This document shows, piece after piece, positions 32,992 through 63,775 of a stretch of DNA of 64,000 nt. Position numbers and translations under genes: made by a program. Each line of letters begins with the position of its first letter. The stretch's first letter is position 1. The stretch comes from Solimonas fluminis (GTDB lineage: Bacteria > Pseudomonadota > Gammaproteobacteria > Nevskiales > Nevskiaceae): NCBI RefSeq assembly GCF_002930645.1, contig NZ_PSNW01000002.1, positions 310,001 to 374,000 of the forward strand, in the 5' to 3' direction. The notes below the pieces were generated by a model. It was not told the DNA's origin. It saw only the letters and a program-made list of their open reading frames with translations, and searched no databases.

Positions 32992-33624
32992 TCAGTTCCG
33001 GCGCGCGGCCCTGGCCGGCTTGGGCATGCGTTGCTCGCCCACCAGCTGCGCCGCCATCGCCGCGAAGGTCTCGATCACCTGCTCGCGCGAGACATGCGGG
33101 GCCGGGTCGCTGATGTAGCGCACGGTGGTGAACAGCACGCTGTTGATCAGCACGTAGATCTTGGCCTGCAGCTCCTGCACCGGCTGCGTCGGCGGGTTCT
33201 GCATCAGGTACACCGCCAGGGCGGTGTGCATCTGCGCCTCCAGCTCGTTCATCACGGCGGCGCTGTCGAGCTGCGCCCAGTAGCGCGAGACGTGCATGTA
33301 GCGCCCCCCGTTGGCTTCCAGCAATGTCCAGACGTCGTGCAGCAGGTCGCGCACGAAGTCGCGGATGCCCTTGGGAGCGAGGCTGCCGAGCTGCCGGCCC
33401 ACCACCGCCTTCAGTTCGCCGGCGATCTGCGCCAGCACGCCGGCGTAGAGGTCTTCCTTGCTGTCGAAATACTGGTAGAGCGAGCCCACGCTGACGCCGG
33501 CGCGCGCCGCGATGCGCGCCGCGGTGGCGGCCTCCAGGCCTTCCTCGGCGATGGTGATGGCCGCGGCCTCCACCAGGTCCTGGACCATGGCGCGGGAACG
33601 ATGCTGGCGGGGCTTCTTGCGCAT
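32992..33624 (-). CDS. TetR/AcrR family regulator of the oxygenase/Ldi-like locus
   Basis: A 210-residue TetR repressor; the HTH is AITIAEEGLEAATAARIAARAGVSVGSLYQYFDSKEDLYAGVL (about 22-64). The C-terminal domain is of the TetR_C_40 style (KIYVLINSVLFTTVRYI). ATG 33624 is chosen because further upstream codons cross the operator. It is divergent from the MpaB-family/Ldi-like pair, and a 22-bp palindrome lies between the two starts. It is likely derepressed by the pathway substrate, perhaps a hydrophobic alcohol or terpenoid; that is inference. Confidence 0.94.
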   Translation of the reverse strand: MRKKPRQHRSRAMVQDLVEAAAITIAEEGLEAATAARIAARAGVSVGSLYQYFDSKEDLYAGVLAQIAGELKAVVGRQLGSLAPKGIRDFVRDLLHDVWTLLEANGGRYMHVSRYWAQLDSAAVMNELEAQMHTALAVYLMQNPPTQPVQELQAKIYVLINSVLFTTVRYISDPAPHVSREQVIETFAAMAAQLVGEQRMPKPARAARRN

Positions 33625-33641
33625 GCCTGTAATGCGAATTG

Positions 33642-33663
33642 AATGCGACTGAATAGTCGCATT
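33642..33663. promoter_or_regulatory. TetR operator palindrome
   Basis: A perfect 22-bp palindrome AATGCGACT-GAAT-AGTCGCATT (33642-33663), nine-base arms, lies midway between divergent starts. A further half-site AATGCGAAT is at 33631-33639. Position and symmetry fit the operator for the adjacent TetR protein, which would then shut both promoters. Confidence 0.82.
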
Positions 33664-33697
33664 ATGGTGGCGGCCGGTGCAAGAGGAGAAGAACGCC

Positions 33698-34567
33698 ATG
33701 GCCGGAAGCTGGACCTGGGCGCGTGACGAGATCGCCAGGCTGGACGTGGAGCGGGACTATCACCGCATCGCCCACCTGTCCTTCGTGGTGCGCTACGGCG
33801 CGCCGATGTTCCTGCACGGCCTGTTCTCGGTGGCCTTCGTCTACAACGTCGGCATGCCGGCGATGGCGCGCATCCTCCACCGCGGCGGCCGCGGTCCCAT
33901 CCTGCGCGACACGCGCAAGCGCAACTTCGACTCGCTGACCTTCTTCGGCGAGCTCTACCGTCATGGCGAAGGCGAGCCGACGCGCCGCATCGTGGACCGC
34001 CTGCTGCGCATCCACGGCAACTTTCCCATCGAGAACGAAATGTCGCTGTACACCCTGGCGACGCTGTCCTGCCTGCCGGAGCGCATCTCGCGGCGCTACA
34101 TGGGCGGCGGCGGCCTGGGCGAGAAGGAGTGCGAGGCGCAGTACCGCTTCTGGCGGGCCATCGGTGAGCTCATGCAGATCCGCGACATTCCCCCGACGCG
34201 CGCCGAGTTCCTGGCCTGGATGCGGCACTTCGAGCAGCGGCGCTTCGAGCCCACGGCGGAGTGCAGCGACATCACGGCAGCCCTGGCGCGGGAGTGGGCG
34301 GACTACTGGTTCCCCGCCCCGCTGCGCGGGTTCGGCATCGGCGTGTTCCACGCCATGATCGATCCGGGCCTGCGCCGGGCGCTGCGGCTGCCGGAGCCCA
34401 CGGCCTTCCAGGACGCCCTGGCAACCCTGGGCGTGCGCGCCCTGTTCCTCGGCAAGAAACTGCTGCCGGATCCCGGCGAGCGCCATATCACCGACTTCTT
34501 CGGGCGCGAATACGGCCGCGGGGCTCCGCAGATCGAGAAGGTCGGCTACCAGGGAGACGGCCAATGA
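33698..34567 (+). CDS. MpaB/Lcp-family (DUF2236) oxygenase domain protein
   Basis: A 289-residue protein of the DUF2236 family, which includes the fungal ER-bound oxygenase MpaB' and the latex-clearing protein Lcp (b-type haem cleavage of polyisoprene). The family pattern is seen in FVVRYGAPMFLHGLF, GRGPILRDTRKRNFDSLTFFGELYRHGEG, RRIVDRLLRIHGNFPIENEMSLYTLATL and the C-terminal FHAMIDPGLRRALRLPEP. I cannot assign haem ligands with certainty; His in RIHGNFPI is the usual candidate. ATG 33698 has an AGAGGAGAAG site. It overlaps the Ldi-like gene (ATGA) and is under the 22-bp operator. Confidence 0.85.
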   Translation: MAGSWTWARDEIARLDVERDYHRIAHLSFVVRYGAPMFLHGLFSVAFVYNVGMPAMARILHRGGRGPILRDTRKRNFDSLTFFGELYRHGEGEPTRRIVDRLLRIHGNFPIENEMSLYTLATLSCLPERISRRYMGGGGLGEKECEAQYRFWRAIGELMQIRDIPPTRAEFLAWMRHFEQRRFEPTAECSDITAALAREWADYWFPAPLRGFGIGVFHAMIDPGLRRALRLPEPTAFQDALATLGVRALFLGKKLLPDPGERHITDFFGREYGRGAPQIEKVGYQGDGQ

Positions 34568-36591
34568 ATACCTCCACCGCGACCAATGCCTACGGCTACC
34601 GCCTGCAGGGCGATCCGGTTCCGCTGATCCCGGAGGGCAAGGGCCTGGCCGGGCCGGTGACCGCCTCGCGCTGGCGCCGTACCGCGCTCGTCTACCTGGC
34701 GCTGGTGGCGCTCGGCACGCTGCTCGCCTGGGGGCCTGATCCGCAGTGGGCCTCCCTCGGCCTCGGACTGGTCGTCCCCGGCGGCGGCTTCCTGTTCCAT
34801 GCCGGCGGCGCCGGCGCGGCGCTGCTGCACCTCGGCCTGTTCGCCGGCACCTTGCTGCTGTTCCTGCTGGCGCTGTTCCTGTGGGTGGCCACCGGCAACA
34901 TCCTGGCGCCGGTGCTGGTCTGGCTGGGCAGCGCCGCGGCGGCCGCGGCCATGGACCACGGGTCCGGCGCCGCCGGCATCGTGTCGATGGCGGCCATGTG
35001 CCGCAGCGGAGCCCTGGCCACCGCCGCGTTCTGGACCGACGCCCGCGCCTGGCTGCCGGCCGGCGCGCTGGCGTCGCTGGGGCTGGTGGTGATGGCCATG
35101 CGCCGTCGCCTGCCCTGGCTGCGCGCCGAGCGCGAGCGCATCAACCACTATCTCGCCGGCAAGCGCACCACCATCACCACCGTGCTCGACCATGCCACCG
35201 GCCTGCCGAAGGTGGAGCCGCTGAAGGAGCAGGACCTGCCGCTGTGGCGTTTCCTGCTGGACCGTTCGCTGCAGCCGGTGCCCGACTTCGGCGGCTTCGA
35301 CATCATCGACGAGTTCCGCGAGGCGGCCAAGCGCTACCAGGTCTGCAACCTGTCCTACATGCTCGGCATGCACAGCTACACGCGCACGCCGGCCTTCCGC
35401 GGCTACATGGACCAGGGACAGCAGAACCTCGCACGCAAGATGATGGACCACCGCGCCTGGAGCTACTGGCGCCTGGAGAACCTGTGGGGGAACCTGCGCA
35501 GCGATCCCGATCCCTTCGCCCGCGACAACATCATGTACTACGGCTGGTACGGCGGCATGCTGGGTATCGATCTCTGCAACACCGGCAATGAGCGCTTCAG
35601 CCGTCCCGGCTCCATCCGCCTGGAGCACCCCAACGGCGAGGTCTACGAGTCCAGCTTCACCGACATCTGCCAGATCATCCGCCGCAACATGGCGGCCTCC
35701 GATTTCTGCCTGTTCCCCTGCGAGCCGCGCTGGATCTATCCCATCTGCAACAACTTCGGCGCGCTGTCGCTGAAATGCCACGACCGCCACTTCGGCACGA
35801 ACTGGTGGGAGGAGGTGCGCGAGCGCTACCAGGCCAGCCTGGAGAACGAGTTCGTCACGCAGAACGGCCGCATCACCGCCATCCGCGACTACTACACCGG
35901 CATGACCGTGCCGGCGCTGACCGCGACCATGGCCGATGCCGTCACCGCGCTGTTCATCCACCCGGTGCTGCCGGAGCTGGCGCGGCGCAGCTGGGAGATC
36001 GTGCGCCATGACCTGATCCGCGTCGGGCGCGGCGGCGTGGAACTCAAGGTCAACGGCTGGGACAAGATCGACTTCGGCAACTACCGCCGCAGCCTGCTCA
36101 CCACCTATGCCCTGGTGGCCGCCTCCGCCCGCGAGATGGGCGACGACGAGGTGGCCGACGGCCTGCTCGCGCGAATCGACTCCGAATTCGACAGCGAGGT
36201 GACCGGTGGCGTGCGCCACTACAAGGGCGGGTCGGTGAGCGCCCATGCCGTGATCCACGCCGCGCGCGTGCTGCGCGGCAACGGCTTCCACGACCTGGTC
36301 TCGGTGGGCATGCCGGAGCCCTGGCGCCGCGGACCGCTGCTGCAGGAAGCGCCGTACCCGCAGGTGCTGGTGGCCGGCGCGGTATCCGACGGCCAGGCCC
36401 TGTTCCTGCGCCTGGCGCCGGGTGCCGGCGGCGGGCGCTTCCCCCTGGGCCTGTCGCAGCTGCGGCCGGACGCGGAGTACTGCGTGATCGGCGGCACCGG
36501 AACCCGCCTGCGCGCCGACGGGCAGGGCCGCGCCAGCCTGCACGTGGACCTCGACCGCCTGCAGGACCTGCGCGTCGTGCCGGTCCAGTGA
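34564..36591 (+). CDS. Membrane-anchored linalool dehydratase/isomerase-like protein
   Basis: A 675-residue protein. Residues 1-185 hold four or five membrane helices (for example 40-58, 80-125, 160-180); the rest is a helical barrel domain that I align by eye with Castellaniella linalool dehydratase/isomerase (Ldi). Shared landmarks are NLW-NLRSDPDPFARDNIMYYG, the pair CEPRWIYPIC (Cys386 and Cys395, same spacing as Ldi Cys171/Cys180 in CEPDNYFVQC), CNNFGALSLKCHDRHFGTNW and the later ALTATMADAVTALFIHP. The residue matching Ldi His129 is Trp328 (MYYGW versus MYKGH). Thus two thiols remain but the base/acid differs. It overlaps the oxygenase gene by four bases. The substrate is unknown. Confidence 0.8.
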   Translation: MNTSTATNAYGYRLQGDPVPLIPEGKGLAGPVTASRWRRTALVYLALVALGTLLAWGPDPQWASLGLGLVVPGGGFLFHAGGAGAALLHLGLFAGTLLLFLLALFLWVATGNILAPVLVWLGSAAAAAAMDHGSGAAGIVSMAAMCRSGALATAAFWTDARAWLPAGALASLGLVVMAMRRRLPWLRAERERINHYLAGKRTTITTVLDHATGLPKVEPLKEQDLPLWRFLLDRSLQPVPDFGGFDIIDEFREAAKRYQVCNLSYMLGMHSYTRTPAFRGYMDQGQQNLARKMMDHRAWSYWRLENLWGNLRSDPDPFARDNIMYYGWYGGMLGIDLCNTGNERFSRPGSIRLEHPNGEVYESSFTDICQIIRRNMAASDFCLFPCEPRWIYPICNNFGALSLKCHDRHFGTNWWEEVRERYQASLENEFVTQNGRITAIRDYYTGMTVPALTATMADAVTALFIHPVLPELARRSWEIVRHDLIRVGRGGVELKVNGWDKIDFGNYRRSLLTTYALVAASAREMGDDEVADGLLARIDSEFDSEVTGGVRHYKGGSVSAHAVIHAARVLRGNGFHDLVSVGMPEPWRRGPLLQEAPYPQVLVAGAVSDGQALFLRLAPGAGGGRFPLGLSQLRPDAEYCVIGGTGTRLRADGQGRASLHVDLDRLQDLRVVPVQ

Positions 36592-36602
36592 GTCCCTGAG
36601 CC

Positions 36603-36728
36603 ATGGCCTGCTGCATCGTCGGATCGCTGCTGATGCTCGGCGTCGCCGGCGGGGCGCGCTGGCTGCGCCGCCACCTGCTGCGCCGGCCGGAGCAGGCACC
36701 GGAGGCCTGGCGGCTCCACGACGCCTGA
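36603..36728 (+). CDS. Short membrane protein of 41 residues
   Basis: ATG 36603 opens a 41-codon reading frame: MACCIVGSLLMLGVAGGARW, then LRRHLLRRPEQAPEAWRLHDA. One membrane helix (about 4-18) with a CC pair and a basic end. It begins 11 bases after the Ldi-like stop, so it could be a third gene of the unit. The ribosome site is weak (GTCCCTGAGCC). I do not recognise it. Confidence 0.5.
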   Translation: MACCIVGSLLMLGVAGGARWLRRHLLRRPEQAPEAWRLHDA

Positions 36729-36884: not shown

Positions 36885-37589
36885 ATGAACGTCCTGATCG
36901 TCCACGCCCATCCCGAGCCCCAGTCCTTCTGCGCCTCCATGTGCAGCGTTGCCACGGAAGTGCTGCAGGCCCAGGGGCACACGGTGGTCGTGTCGGATCT
37001 CTACCGGCAAGGCTTCAACCCGGTGGCCAGCGCCGACGACTTCGGCACGCGCAAGAACCCGGACTACCTCACCTACGCGCTGGAGCAGCGCAGCGCCTAC
37101 GAGGCCGGCAGCATCGACCCGCAGATCCGCGACGAGATCGAGAAGGTCAAGGCCTGCGACCTGCTGATCCTCAGCTTCCCGCTGTTCTGGTTCTCCGTGC
37201 CGGCGATGATGAAGGGCTGGATCGACCGGGTCTTCATCTCCGGCATCTTCTACGGCGGCAAGCGCATCTACGCCCAGGGCGGCATGCGGGGCAAGAAGGC
37301 CATGCTGGCGCTGACGCTGGGCGGCCGCGAGGACATGCTCAGCGCCGGCGGCGTGCACGGCGAGCTTGCCGCCATGCTCAAGCCGCTCACCCAGGGCACG
37401 CTCGGCTATGTCGGCATGGACGTGCTGCCCACCTTCGCGGCCTGGCACGTGCCCTACCTCAAGCCCGAGGCGCGCGCCGCGCTGATGGAGCAGTGGCGCG
37501 CGCACCTGGCGCCCGGCTTCGAAGGCGCCGAGCCCCTGAAGCTGCCCGATCTCACGCTCTACGACGACGCCTTCCGCCGCAAGGGCTGA
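36885..37589 (+). CDS. NAD(P)H dehydrogenase (quinone), flavodoxin-like fold
   Basis: A 234-residue flavoprotein of the NQO1/KefF family. It starts MNVLIVHAHPEPQSFCASMC (FMN/FAD phosphate loop) and has LLILSFPLFWFSVPAMMKGWIDRVF (about 94-118) and TLGGREDM. Such enzymes reduce quinones by two electrons. No membrane segment is seen. ATG 36885 is used; an upstream in-frame start lacks support. It lies after the REP element and before the TlpA gene, not tightly coupled to either. Confidence 0.93.
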   Translation: MNVLIVHAHPEPQSFCASMCSVATEVLQAQGHTVVVSDLYRQGFNPVASADDFGTRKNPDYLTYALEQRSAYEAGSIDPQIRDEIEKVKACDLLILSFPLFWFSVPAMMKGWIDRVFISGIFYGGKRIYAQGGMRGKKAMLALTLGGREDMLSAGGVHGELAAMLKPLTQGTLGYVGMDVLPTFAAWHVPYLKPEARAALMEQWRAHLAPGFEGAEPLKLPDLTLYDDAFRRKG

Positions 37590-37771
37590 TGGCCCGGCGT
37601 GGATTGGCCCCTTCGGAGATATTCGCCGAGGGGACGGTCCTCGTTGTCCTGAATTATCAATCGCCTGACCGCTGGGAATATCGCCCCGTCGCCCCGGCGC
37701 GGAGAGGATGCGATGATGCCGTGGACCATCCCCGCAGAGGGACGGCGGCCGTGCCATTGGAGGAAGAGAGG

Positions 37772-38266
37772 ATGCGAACCGCCCTGGGCCTCGCCCTGGC
37801 CCTGATGCTGGTGTCACCCGCCGGCCACGCCGTGAAGGCCGGCGAGGCCGCGCCGCCGCTGTCCGCGCCCAATGCCGCGCAGCAGCCGGTGGGCCTCAAG
37901 GACTATCGCGGCAAGGTGGTCTACGTGGACTTCTGGGCCTCCTGGTGCGCGCCCTGCCGCCAAGCCATGCCGCAGTACGACCGCCTCTACCAGAAGTGGG
38001 CCTCCCGCGGCCTGGTGGTGCTGGGCGTCAACCTGGATACCGACCGTGCCGAGGCCGACCGCGCGCTCAAGCGCCGACCGGTGAGCTTTCCGGTGGTCTA
38101 CGACCCGGCCGGCAGCTGGCCCGAGCGCTTCGACCTGCCGACCATGCCCACTGGCTACCTGATCGGGCGTGACGGTATCGTGCGTTACGTGCACGAAGGA
38201 TTCAGGACTTCGGATGTGCCGGCGCTGGAAGCGCTGATCGATAAAACCCTGGGGGAGAAACCATGA
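37772..38266 (+). CDS. TlpA-like periplasmic thioredoxin
   Basis: A 164-residue thioredoxin-fold protein with a signal peptide (RTALGLALALMLVSPAGHA). The active site is WASWCAPCRQ (Cys59 and Cys62), and the cis-Pro is in LPTMPTGYLI. It resembles TlpA/ResA reductases of the periplasm. A GGAGGAAGAGAGG site precedes ATG 37772. It overlaps the DUF4266 lipoprotein by four bases and with it and the DUF3570 gene makes a known conserved trio, often with ApbE; the trio probably serves extracytoplasmic flavin or metal-redox chemistry. Confidence 0.92.
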   Translation: MRTALGLALALMLVSPAGHAVKAGEAAPPLSAPNAAQQPVGLKDYRGKVVYVDFWASWCAPCRQAMPQYDRLYQKWASRGLVVLGVNLDTDRAEADRALKRRPVSFPVVYDPAGSWPERFDLPTMPTGYLIGRDGIVRYVHEGFRTSDVPALEALIDKTLGEKP

Positions 38267-38493
38267 GGCTGAACCTGTTCTGCGGCGCCCTGCTCGCCGT
38301 CTCGCTGCTGTCCGGCTGCGCCACCACCGCCAGGCAGGACGTGCAGCCCTGGCAGCGCGGCACGCTCGCCAAGTCCGAGATGGCCTGGGAGCCGGATCCG
38401 CTGATGGCGGAGTACCGCCGCCAGGTGCAATACAGCAAGGAAGCCGCCAGCGGCGGCGCCACCATCGGCGGCGGTGGGTGTGGGTGTAACTAA
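38263..38493 (+). CDS. DUF4266 lipoprotein
   Basis: A 76-residue lipoprotein: signal FCGALLAVSLLSGC with lipid site Cys19. The DUF4266 features are VQPWQRGTLAKSEMAWEPDPLMAEYRRQVQYSKEAASGGAT and the Gly/Cys end GGGGCGCN, which could bind metal or cofactor. The tail holds SGGAT, close to but not equal to the (D/N)xx(S/T)GAT site flavinylated by ApbE. It is coupled to the TlpA gene by ATGA and precedes the DUF3570 gene by 131 bases. Confidence 0.9.
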   Translation: MRLNLFCGALLAVSLLSGCATTARQDVQPWQRGTLAKSEMAWEPDPLMAEYRRQVQYSKEAASGGATIGGGGCGCN

Positions 38494-38624
38494 AGCTCAT
38501 CGCCGCGTAGAGGGCCCCCGGTGCAAGGCGCCCGGGATCCCAGCGCAGTGATGAGCGCGAAGGTGTTGACCACACCCGCCAGACCCACACCGCCAGCAGA
38601 CAGAAAGAAATAAAGGGGAGATTC

Positions 38625-39800
38625 ATGACCACCAAGACCAAGACCTCCAAGGCCCTCGCCGCGCTCACGCAGGCCGCCCTGGCCCTGCCCGGTGCCGCGA
38701 TGGCCGCCGAGATCCAGTCCGACTATCTCTTCAGCTATTACAAGGAAGGCGACATCTCCGGCGGCAACAAGGGCAGCGGCTCTTCCGACCGCTTCGAGAT
38801 CTACTCGCACATGTTCCGCGTGGTGGCGCCGCAGGACGGTGACCGCGCCATCGGCCTCAACCTCACCTACGAGACCATGAGCGGCGCCTCGCCCTGGTAC
38901 ATCGCGCCAGACGCCAACGGCAAGCCCCAGGTGGCGATGAGCGGCGCCAGCATCCGCGAGGAGCGCGTCGACGTGCAGGGCACCTACTCCCTGCCCATCG
39001 CGCCGTTCCAGACCGCCTTCAGCCTGGGCTACTCCACCGAGGACGATTACGAGGCGATCAACGCCGGCGTCGAACTGGAGCTGGAGGACGACAACACGGG
39101 CATCACCTGGACCGGCGGCCTCGGCTACTCCGACGACAGCCTGAAGCCGACCCAGGGCGCCAAGCCCACCAGCATCACCAAGGACGACAAGCGCAGCATC
39201 ACCGTCTACGGCGGTGCCGCTTTCGTGCTCAATGCCAATACCGTCGTGCAGGGCAGCCTCAGCTACCAGAACCACGACGGCTTCCTCAGCGATCCCTACA
39301 AGCTGGCCTATATCGAGGGCCAGTCCCCGGTGGCGGACAGCCGGCCGGACAAGCGACAGTCCTGGGCGGCCACCGGCAAGCTGCGCCACTTCCTGCCGCA
39401 GTACAACGGCGCGCTGCACCTGGACTACCGCTACTTCCATGACGACTGGGAGATCGACGCCCACACCGTGGAGATCGCCTTCGCCAAGGCGCTGCCGGAA
39501 AACCTGCGCCTCACGCCCTCGCTGCGCTGGTATTCCCAGAGCCAGGCCGACTTCTACGCGCCGTACTACAACGCCCCGCGCAGCGACGGCTACGCCTCCA
39601 GCGACTACCGCCTCTCGCCCTATGGCGCGCTGTCCGCCCGCGTGGACCTGACCAAGGCCGTGGGCCCCTGGGCCATCGGCGGCGGCGCGGAGTACTACAA
39701 GGCCAGCAAGGACTTCGCGCTCAAGAGCGTGGACGTGGAGAACCCGGCGCTGATCGACTACTGGAGCGTCCAGTTCCGGGCGACGTATCGCTTCGAGTAG
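38625..39800 (+). CDS. DUF3570 outer-membrane beta-barrel protein
   Basis: A 391-residue protein with signal peptide (about 1-28, ALPGAAMAA) and a run of amphipathic beta strands ending in SVQFRATYRFE, the terminal aromatic typical of outer-membrane barrels. DUF3570 members carry IQSDYLFSYYKEGDISGG... at the N-terminus and RWYSQSQADFYAPYY (about 304-318). Function is unknown, possibly a porin or receptor for the TlpA/DUF4266 system. A good ribosome site (AAAGGGGAG) precedes ATG 38625. A hairpin follows at 39818. Confidence 0.92.
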   Translation: MTTKTKTSKALAALTQAALALPGAAMAAEIQSDYLFSYYKEGDISGGNKGSGSSDRFEIYSHMFRVVAPQDGDRAIGLNLTYETMSGASPWYIAPDANGKPQVAMSGASIREERVDVQGTYSLPIAPFQTAFSLGYSTEDDYEAINAGVELELEDDNTGITWTGGLGYSDDSLKPTQGAKPTSITKDDKRSITVYGGAAFVLNANTVVQGSLSYQNHDGFLSDPYKLAYIEGQSPVADSRPDKRQSWAATGKLRHFLPQYNGALHLDYRYFHDDWEIDAHTVEIAFAKALPENLRLTPSLRWYSQSQADFYAPYYNAPRSDGYASSDYRLSPYGALSARVDLTKAVGPWAIGGGAEYYKASKDFALKSVDVENPALIDYWSVQFRATYRFE

Positions 39801-43387: not shown

Positions 43388-44302
43388 ATGCGCTTCCAGC
43401 ATTTCAGCTTCCACGCCATGGGCGGGCCCTGCTCGCTGCAGCTGTTCGCGCCGGACGACGCGCAGCTGCGGCGCGCCGCGGCCGCCGCGCAGGCGGAGGT
43501 GCTGCGTATCGAGGCCAAGTACTCGCGCTACCGCGAGGACAGCGTGGTCTCGCGCATCAACGCCAGCGCCGGCAACGCGCAGGGCACGGAGGTGGATCCC
43601 GAGACCGCCGCGCTGCTGGACTACGCCGCCGCCGCCCACGAGCAGAGCGACGGCCTGTTCGATGCCACCTCGGGCGTGCTGCGCCGCGCCTGGGATTTCA
43701 AGGCGCGCAGGCTGCCGCAGCAGTCGCAGCTCGACGCGCTGCTGCCGCTGGTGGGCTGGGACAAGCTGCGCTGGGAGCGGCCGCGGCTGGTGCTGCCGCT
43801 GCCCGGCATGGAGCTGGACTTCGGCGGCTTCGGCAAGGAATACGCGGCCGACCGTGCCGCCGCCGCGCTGGCCGCCAGCGGCGTGCATCACGCGCTGGTG
43901 GAGCTGGGCGGCGACATCCGCGTGCTCGGCCCGCAGCCGGACGGCGCGCCCTGGCGCGTCGGCATCCGCCATCCGCGCGCGCCGGACCTGCCGGTGGCGG
44001 GCGTGGAGCTGCGCGGCGGCGCCATCGCCAGCAGCGGCGACTACGAACGCTACTTCGAGCTGGCCGGCCGCCGCTACAGCCACATCCTCGATCCGCGCAG
44101 CGGCTGGCCCATCCAGGGCCTGGCCAGCGTCAGCGTGCTGGCCGAGCAATGCCTGGTTGCCGGCACCGCCACCACCATCGCCATGCTCAAGGGCGAACAG
44201 GGCCGCGCCTGGCTGGAGGAGCTGGGCCTGCCCTGGATGACGGTGGACGCGGGCGGCATGGTGGAGGGCAGCATCGCCATCGCCGCGGCGGATCCGGCCT
44301 AG
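43388..44302 (+). CDS. apbE: FAD:protein FMN transferase (ApbE)
   Basis: A 304-residue flavin transferase that links FMN to Thr/Ser of extracytoplasmic redox proteins. Recognised from FHAMGGPCSLQLFA, IEAKYSRYREDSVVSRIN, DATSGVLRRAWDF, DFGGFGKEYAADRAA (flavin site), LVELGGDIRVLG and RRYSHILDPRSGWPI. No signal peptide is evident, which is unusual for ApbE proteins that act outside the cytoplasm. It follows the SDR by 77 bases. Its nearest likely partner is the TlpA-DUF4266-DUF3570 set 3.6 kb upstream. Its stop lies in an inverted repeat. Confidence 0.95.
   Translation: MRFQHFSFHAMGGPCSLQLFAPDDAQLRRAAAAAQAEVLRIEAKYSRYREDSVVSRINASAGNAQGTEVDPETAALLDYAAAAHEQSDGLFDATSGVLRRAWDFKARRLPQQSQLDALLPLVGWDKLRWERPRLVLPLPGMELDFGGFGKEYAADRAAAALAASGVHHALVELGGDIRVLGPQPDGAPWRVGIRHPRAPDLPVAGVELRGGAIASSGDYERYFELAGRRYSHILDPRSGWPIQGLASVSVLAEQCLVAGTATTIAMLKGEQGRAWLEELGLPWMTVDAGGMVEGSIAIAAADPA

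Positions 44303-61333: not shown

Positions 61334-63775
<2,442 letters not shown>

Follow-up and report, generated by a model that had tools for sequence, protein, structure and literature searches.

The question raised by this locus is whether an oxygenase gene and a gene for a protein of the linalool dehydratase/isomerase (Ldi) family, placed side by side behind a TetR-type regulator in Solimonas fluminis, form a conserved functional unit, and what such a unit would do. The locus lies in a stretch of 64,000 nt (assembly GCF_002930645.1, contig NZ_PSNW01000002.1, positions 310,001-374,000 of the forward strand), hereafter the window, of a 4.67-Mb genome assembled in 34 contigs. Analyses of the window and of related genomes indicated that genes for an MPAB-family oxygenase, an Ldi protein with a membrane part and a microprotein (41 aa in the window) follow one another in seven genomes. 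The enzyme families are known; the conserved operon that combines them is apparently undescribed.

Organization of the locus

The TetR, DUF2236 and Ldi genes were confirmed by open reading frame positions and Pfam where a preliminary description, made from the sequence alone, had placed them, and the MPAB and Ldi genes overlap by 4 bases (ATGA), which agrees with the coupling proposed there. In the list that follows, paired loci are those in which an MPAB gene directly precedes an Ldi gene.

32992-33624, minus strand: TetR-family regulator of 210 aa, divergent from the operon (TetR_N, E 1.3e-14; orthologues divergent at 5 further paired loci).
33642-33663, no strand: predicted TetR operator with 9-bp arms and a 4-nt spacer (repeat statistics, genome pattern scan, related sequences at five other paired loci).
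33698-34567, plus strand: MPAB_Lcp_cat (DUF2236) protein of 289 aa, from sequence and model a probable heme C=C-cleaving oxygenase (PF09995; match to 8s1j).
34564-36591, plus strand: membrane-anchored Ldi-family protein of 675 aa (PF18566, E 1.5e-83; PDB Ldi, E 5.3e-12).
34564-35118, plus strand: hydrophobic N-terminal part of the Ldi protein, residues 1-185 (hydropathy).
35332-36234, plus strand: Ldi domain, residues 257-557 (Pfam).
35719-35748, plus strand: CX8C pair, C386 and C395 of the Ldi protein (alignment with Ldi; position check).
36603-36728, plus strand: MxCC microprotein of 41 aa with a single hydrophobic segment (kept after Ldi in 7/7 paired loci; hydropathy).

Conservation of the gene pair

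A survey of 85 genomes of the order Nevskiales revealed PF18566 in 14 genomes with 15 copies. A PF09995 gene lies directly before Ldi in seven of these copies, those of G000 (the S. fluminis genome itself), G051, G052, G007, G053, G058 and G059, and the 4-base overlap is present in all seven; single loci are given L numbers, e.g. L035 in G053. The paired genomes span four genera, three of the seven falling in one genus, and Solimonas and Hydrocarboniphaga both belong to the Nevskiaceae. Conserved co-occurrence, the lack of which the preliminary description had named beforehand as refuting it, was found in seven of the 14 Ldi-bearing genomes, within one bacterial family. In a phylogenetic tree of 42 rows, six of which have residues in less than half of the columns kept, the paired Ldis formed one group (100/100, in 100% of the bootstrap trees). 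With seven genomes, four genera and one Ldi clade, an accident of a single genome was rejected; the pair is an operon at the level of the lineage, probably assembled once in or near the Nevskiaceae.

A profile built from the seven oxygenase sequences matched 10 of the 85 genomes, nine of them with at least 400 bits (the seven paired ones, G056 and G066) and the tenth, G082, with 80 bits, and in 398 genomes of the phylum it returned its own match and two weak ones. Outside the order, where sampling is thin, no pairing was seen: the oxygenase occurred in 6 of 41 short loci, which extend only about 1-1.5 kb to either side, and these six were all paired loci from within the order; pairing was absent from seven further Ldi loci (0/7) and three plasmid loci (0/3). 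Counting the centre or own genome of each set, Ldi itself was detected in 3 of 398 genomes sampled from the phylum, 6 of 369 from the class and 7 of 385 from another class. It is unusually common in one other family, that of genome G565 (f177, loci L048-L065), where 18 of 36 genomes have it, several with at least two copies on separate tree branches.

The Ldi-family protein

The Ldi domain PF18566 covers residues 257-557 of the 675-aa protein (281.4 bits against a cut-off of 26.1), and the Ldi structure 5hlr is the PDB entry matching at 5.3e-12; the only NCBIfam family obtained was non-significant (E 0.13). The C-terminal part, which had been aligned with Ldi by eye, belongs by sequence to the Ldi family. 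The CX8C pair noticed at the same time consists of C386 and C395, which align with the CEP...CN cysteines of Castellaniella Ldi, numbered C171/C180 in the titles of PDB mutants. An alignment of 17 Ldi proteins, drawn from 20 copies of the long loci or the window, with L046 (start unclear), L040 and L047 (both distant) left out, shows no variation at the two catalytic cysteines, in the CEP and CN motifs or at M324, the equivalent of M125 in Castellaniella Ldi. Exchange of the catalytic cysteines inactivates Ldi, and they must be reduced for activity (PMC6600392). In a comparison by structure, bearing on the (alpha,alpha)6 barrel of the Ldi family, the best matches of the weak model (pLDDT 57.3) were Ldi entries: the first 27 rows had TM scores by target of 0.62-0.64, and in a further structure search the ten best rows were Ldi entries with Z about 21 over about 300 residues, the next family reaching Z 14.

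Hydropathy is +0.80 for residues 1-185 versus -0.34 for the remainder, with peaks at 40-58, 90-108 and 108-130 and Arg-rich stretches on either side, further helices appearing only in the weak model. The N-terminal 185 residues are thus hydrophobic, unlike soluble periplasmic Ldi, in agreement with the preliminary description. In the paired clade the membrane part has about 21 extra alignment columns, roughly at residues 130-152, which the unpaired Ldis lack. Membrane anchoring as such was rejected as a novelty, since it is known from Lis of Thauera linaloolentis 47Lol, an Ldi-like protein of 644 residues with four predicted N-terminal helices and activity in the inner membrane (PMC4791888).

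The Lis type has its catalytic part in the cytosol and four membrane helices at the N-terminus. Lis, compared by description only, resembles the Solimonas protein in its hydrophobic N-terminus, its Ldi-like catalytic part and its size (644 versus 675 aa), but its gene lies downstream of atuCFE (PMC4847356), and neither an oxygenase nor an MxCC partner is mentioned in the accessible text. Ldi (LinD) of Castellaniella defragrans (5hlr, 5g1u) shares the Pfam family, the CX8C cysteines and the methionine M125/M324. It is soluble and periplasmic and has H129, whereas the Solimonas protein has Trp and extra membrane and C-terminal parts at its two ends; identity is about 20% over the structural match. 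C. defragrans Ldi has the EC numbers 4.2.1.127 and 5.4.4.4.

The MPAB-family oxygenase

PF09995 matched the 289-aa protein with E 2.1e-16 (61.1 bits against a cut-off of 23), and NCBIfam yielded no family for it. Its sole clear PDB relative by sequence is the trans-anethole oxygenase 8s1j of Stenotrophomonas maltophilia (1.3e-12 with the single sequence, 6.7e-18 by profile). A model built from five sequences (pLDDT 73.7) has the fold of 8s1j, with TM 0.77, Z 26.8 and an rmsd of 3.3 over 267 residues; the values for Lcp (PDB 5o1l) were TM 0.58 and Z 15.8, and globin rows were lower (Z 10). The earlier label of an MpaB/Lcp-family oxygenase was correct as to the MPAB family, but by profile, TM and Z the protein is nearer to trans-anethole oxygenase than to rubber-cleaving Lcp.

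Identification as Lcp was rejected, the protein being shorter, without a hydrophobic start and nearer to 8s1j. Lcp has the fold in common with it but is larger, about 40-46 kDa, and is exported by the Tat pathway (PMC6311187), whereas the Solimonas oxygenase has 289 aa and no hydrophobic N-terminal segment. The enzyme 8s1j is alike in fold and length; it differs in being named for an aromatic propene substrate, and its identity to the Solimonas protein is 19-23%. We know of no Ldi partner for it. Judging by the author list, 8s1j may come from Purwani et al. 2024, a work cited in PMC12724181 that reportedly concerns a class of heme oxygenases cleaving C=C bonds.

H106 is invariant in all seven paired oxygenases and stands opposite a histidine of trans-anethole oxygenase in a pairwise alignment; K74 is kept in six and is R in the remaining one. 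The nitrile rubber oxygenase Nro1 of Gordonia J1A, also a member of the MpaB family, shows b-type heme spectra, is proposed to cleave C=C bonds and has K71 and H104 as inferred heme contacts (PMC12724181). H106 and K74 would correspond to these positions, Nro1 being known to us by description only. It differs in its polymer substrate and in being membrane-bound, and the accessible text does not mention an Ldi partner (PMC12724181). Heme is not to be taken for granted, because the trans-anethole enzyme of P. putida, which acts on aromatic propenes, was described as a flavoprotein in an older paper (PMC3774712). From sequence and model, the Solimonas protein is probably a heme C=C-cleaving enzyme of the trans-anethole-oxygenase type.

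The MxCC microprotein

The 41-aa open reading frame starts 11 nt after the Ldi stop codon. In all seven paired loci a small protein is encoded 2-13 nt after Ldi; its first residue is M or V, the next three are ACC, and its conserved frame is xACCxxGSxLM...PExWRL. Comparisons of close relatives gave synonymous to non-synonymous codon changes of 12:3, 6:4 and 9:2. A chance reading frame was rejected on the strength of this conservation and of the excess of synonymous changes, and the small protein, which had been offered as a possible third member, is a genuine third gene of the operon. Pfam holds no family for the short MxCC forms.

With two of the 41 short loci set aside because their downstream sequence was too short, an MxCC-type protein was identified in nine of the remaining 39, namely six paired loci and three of the four sister-group loci (L014, L016 and L019; not L017), with none in the other 29 scanned downstream of Ldi. 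The forms after three unpaired Ldi copies are longer (97-189 residues), a 130-residue MSCC form follows Ldi on a Novosphingobium plasmid, and in two alphaproteobacterial genomes an MVCC start precedes a DgkA-type domain (DAGK_prokar confirmed in one). The trait is patchy on the Ldi tree, requiring at least three changes. Since Lis expressed alone in E. coli is inactive (PMC4791888) and the microprotein lies beside membrane Ldi genes, it is an obvious candidate for co-expression and may be a missing partner of membrane Ldis.

The TetR regulator and its operator

The regulator encoded at 32992-33624 carries TetR_N with 54.1 bits (Pfam cut-off 24). The 73-bp gap before the oxygenase gene contains AATGCGACT-GAAT-AGTCGCATT at 33642-33663, where a 4-nt spacer separates two perfect 9-bp arms; of the perfect 22-bp palindrome reported earlier the inverted repeat stands (9-4-9), the 22-mer as a whole not being perfect. 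When the gap was shuffled 10,000 times with dinucleotides kept, an equally good repeat (9-bp arms, spacer of at most 12) arose in 9 cases, so the observed one exceeds chance. Immediately upstream is an extra GCGAATT half-site. The regulator appears to serve this operon alone, because the operator pattern occurs at one place only in the genome when up to 3 mismatches are allowed.

Divergent orthologous TetR genes flank six of the seven paired loci, the window included, and related operators were found in the TetR gaps of all six, those of L043 and L044 flagged by script and the others read by eye. The genes in these locus scans were called with a home-made GC-frame caller, which missed the TetR gene of L035, recovered by tblastn. 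The seventh paired locus, of Hydrocarboniphaga (L041), has a different TetR (TetR_N and EthR_C match) and no such operator in its gap; the regulator in G056, a genome with a lone MPAB gene, begins in the same way as the Hydrocarboniphaga TetR. Taken together, the repeat at 33642-33663 is probably the TetR operator.

Proposed function and alternative explanations

Gene content, protein families, oxygenase fold, overlap, clade-wide conservation, third gene and single operator-like site are observed, and on them we tentatively place a proposal with slightly less than an even chance of being right: a self-contained three-gene operon under TetR control, in which a membrane Ldi and a C=C-cleaving heme oxygenase would share a single isoprenoid substrate at the inner membrane. 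The Ldi protein would use C386/C395 on an allylic or tertiary isoprenoid alcohol, whose hydroxyl it would shift, remove or add, as Lis and Ldi do. The MPAB protein, as a heme-b oxygenase, would then cleave a C=C bond of the product to an aldehyde or ketone. The MxCC microprotein would be a membrane partner of the Ldi protein, and TetR would repress the operon at its single operator until substrate or product binds to it. Of the two-step membrane pathway for a hydrophobic alcohol or isoprenoid suggested earlier, the conserved coupling of an MPAB gene with a membrane Ldi gene is retained; the pathway itself, including the heme, the order of the reactions and the shared substrate, we infer.

Several observations weigh against this proposal. 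Eight of the 15 Ldi copies in the order have no MPAB gene (that of G016 starts about 370 bases from a contig end, its upstream neighbour lying outside, and the oxygenase profile was negative in that genome), and two of nine genomes with an MPAB protein of this subfamily, G056 and G066, have no Ldi. In G056 tblastn (E up to 1) detected no Ldi or MxCC remnants beside the lone MPAB gene; in G066 its one hit, about 2.6 kb from the gene, was a weak match to MxCC (E 0.059). With such lone genes, the enzymes can work apart, and the parts of the operon exist on their own as well. Where Ldi has its active-site histidine (H128/H129; numbered H128 in PMC12455561), the alignment with 5hlr shows W328, so linalool activity cannot be assumed, and chemistry or substrate may differ. 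The Ldi structure model is poor (pLDDT 57.3, pTM 0.46). The seven loci have neither a terpene-catabolic gene set nor any other gene in common next to the operon, Rox genes lie near only two of them (in the neighbourhoods searched), and the isoprenoid-type operons described below sit on other branches of the Ldi tree. The genomic context, including the Rox genes and the isoprenoid-type operons described below, points indirectly to isoprenoid or terpenoid compounds and names none.

Ordinary catabolism or detoxification of monoterpene alcohols, with a Lis-type linalool/geraniol isomerase and an oxygenase that only clears a terpene side product, would suit both the Lis-like architecture (PMC4791888) and TetR control, which fits a toxic small inducer. 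The replacement of H128/129 by W328 speaks against it, as does the position of lis downstream of atuCFE (PMC4847356), whereas the seven loci have no constant neighbour outside the operon, and we regard it as unlikely. Action on another hydrophobic substrate (the side chain of a steroid, an aromatic propene or some other lipid), or on two different substrates within one regulon, appears similarly unlikely: aromatic propenes are the substrates of the nearest solved oxygenase (PMC3774712, for the P. putida enzyme), an Ldi-like hydroxyl shift has been proposed for 25-hydroxycholestenone (PMC3691188), and lone MPAB and lone Ldi genes exist, but the translational overlap and the single clade of paired Ldis favour joint action of the two enzymes.

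The catabolism of rubber fragments, in which extracellular Rox enzymes cut polyisoprene and the operon processes the oligo-isoprenoid aldehydes or ketones in the inner membrane, is less likely still. The window encodes a RoxC-type putative rubber dioxygenase at 61334-63775 on the plus strand, 25 kb from the operon (NF051462, 1365 bits against a cut-off of 900; three CXXCH motifs). In G053 a gene about 5 kb from the operon (L035, 17394-19802) passed the RoxB model (921.9 against 900) and a second Rox lies in L112, both within 5-8 kb of the operon, and at the unpaired locus of G050 a RoxA-like gene stands beside Ldi and its MxCC gene. Against this, no Rox was found in the whole 206-kb contig of G058, the whole 35-kb contig of G059, about 94 kb of G007 or the fetched stretches of G051 (about 33 kb) and G052 (20 kb), whole genomes not being searched. 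Turnover of the cell's own polyprenols or membrane isoprenoids, without an outside substrate, is quite improbable. It draws on related membrane Ldis in three alphaproteobacterial loci, where a PF01255 gene (undecaprenyl-diphosphate-synthase-type), Ldi and a PF01219 gene (DgkA-type) follow in order, with MxCC fused to the kinase in two; Pfam confirmed the families in the Aureimonas plasmid and G991, G1215 being assigned by similar gene starts. These Ldis are on a different tree branch, and no such genes adjoin the seven paired operons.

Beyond the three-gene operon itself, a more general scheme can be envisaged, speculative and rather doubtful: membrane Ldi and MxCC could form an as yet undescribed prenyl-alcohol-processing unit plugged into different pathways, synthase/kinase operons in alphaproteobacteria and a heme oxygenase in Nevskiales, where a hydroxyl shift and then a cut would shorten isoprenoid chains at the inner membrane.

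The claim that no system of this make-up had been described agrees with our search, which left out most subscription journals: no description of the MPAB-Ldi combination was found, 'linalool' and 'MpaB' were not co-mentioned, 'linalool' and 'DUF2236' occurred together in unrelated tables only, and PF18566 appeared nowhere. Only two enzymes with the linalool-geraniol reaction are named in the accessible text on Lis (PMC4791888), and the heme oxygenases with which bacteria cleave C=C bonds have been recognised as a class only recently. An operon coupling both families would give a testable natural route to break down or shorten isoprenoids, and the enzymes are of interest for making alkenes and aldehydes.

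Neighbouring genes

A group of redoxin, DUF4266 and DUF3570 genes is found near the operon in the window, L043, L044 and L035, the DUF4266 relative of L035 having been seen in the first locus scan and not in the stricter one. In the window the three are consecutive, and an ApbE gene lies farther along (37589-39800 and 43388-44302), and in L035 their relatives adjoin RoxB. Other unpaired Ldis adjoin genes for P450, FMO, Rieske, FAD monooxygenase or AMP-binding enzymes, and the PVdQ-like and TonB-receptor genes near some loci revealed no common theme.

The prenyl-diphosphate-synthase-type gene, membrane Ldi and DgkA-type kinase occur together at L084 3964-8152 (Aureimonas AU20 plasmid), L092 6281-10626 and L093. 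L084 and L092 also carry an unassigned protein of about 205 aa and a winged-helix regulator before the synthase-type gene, and the kinases of L092 and L093 have the MVCC start. At L038 4872-6641 a single reading frame matches both P450 and DUF3237 in part; an unpaired Ldi gene lies two genes away, and a TonB-receptor gene stands between them. In a second branch of the Ldi family, which lacks the membrane part (L030 9070-11694, L029, L039 and L085), the Ldi gene is followed by a SCO1/SenC-type gene, confirmed by Pfam in L030 and recognised by eye in the other three, which perhaps serves thiol or copper care of the Ldi cysteine pair.

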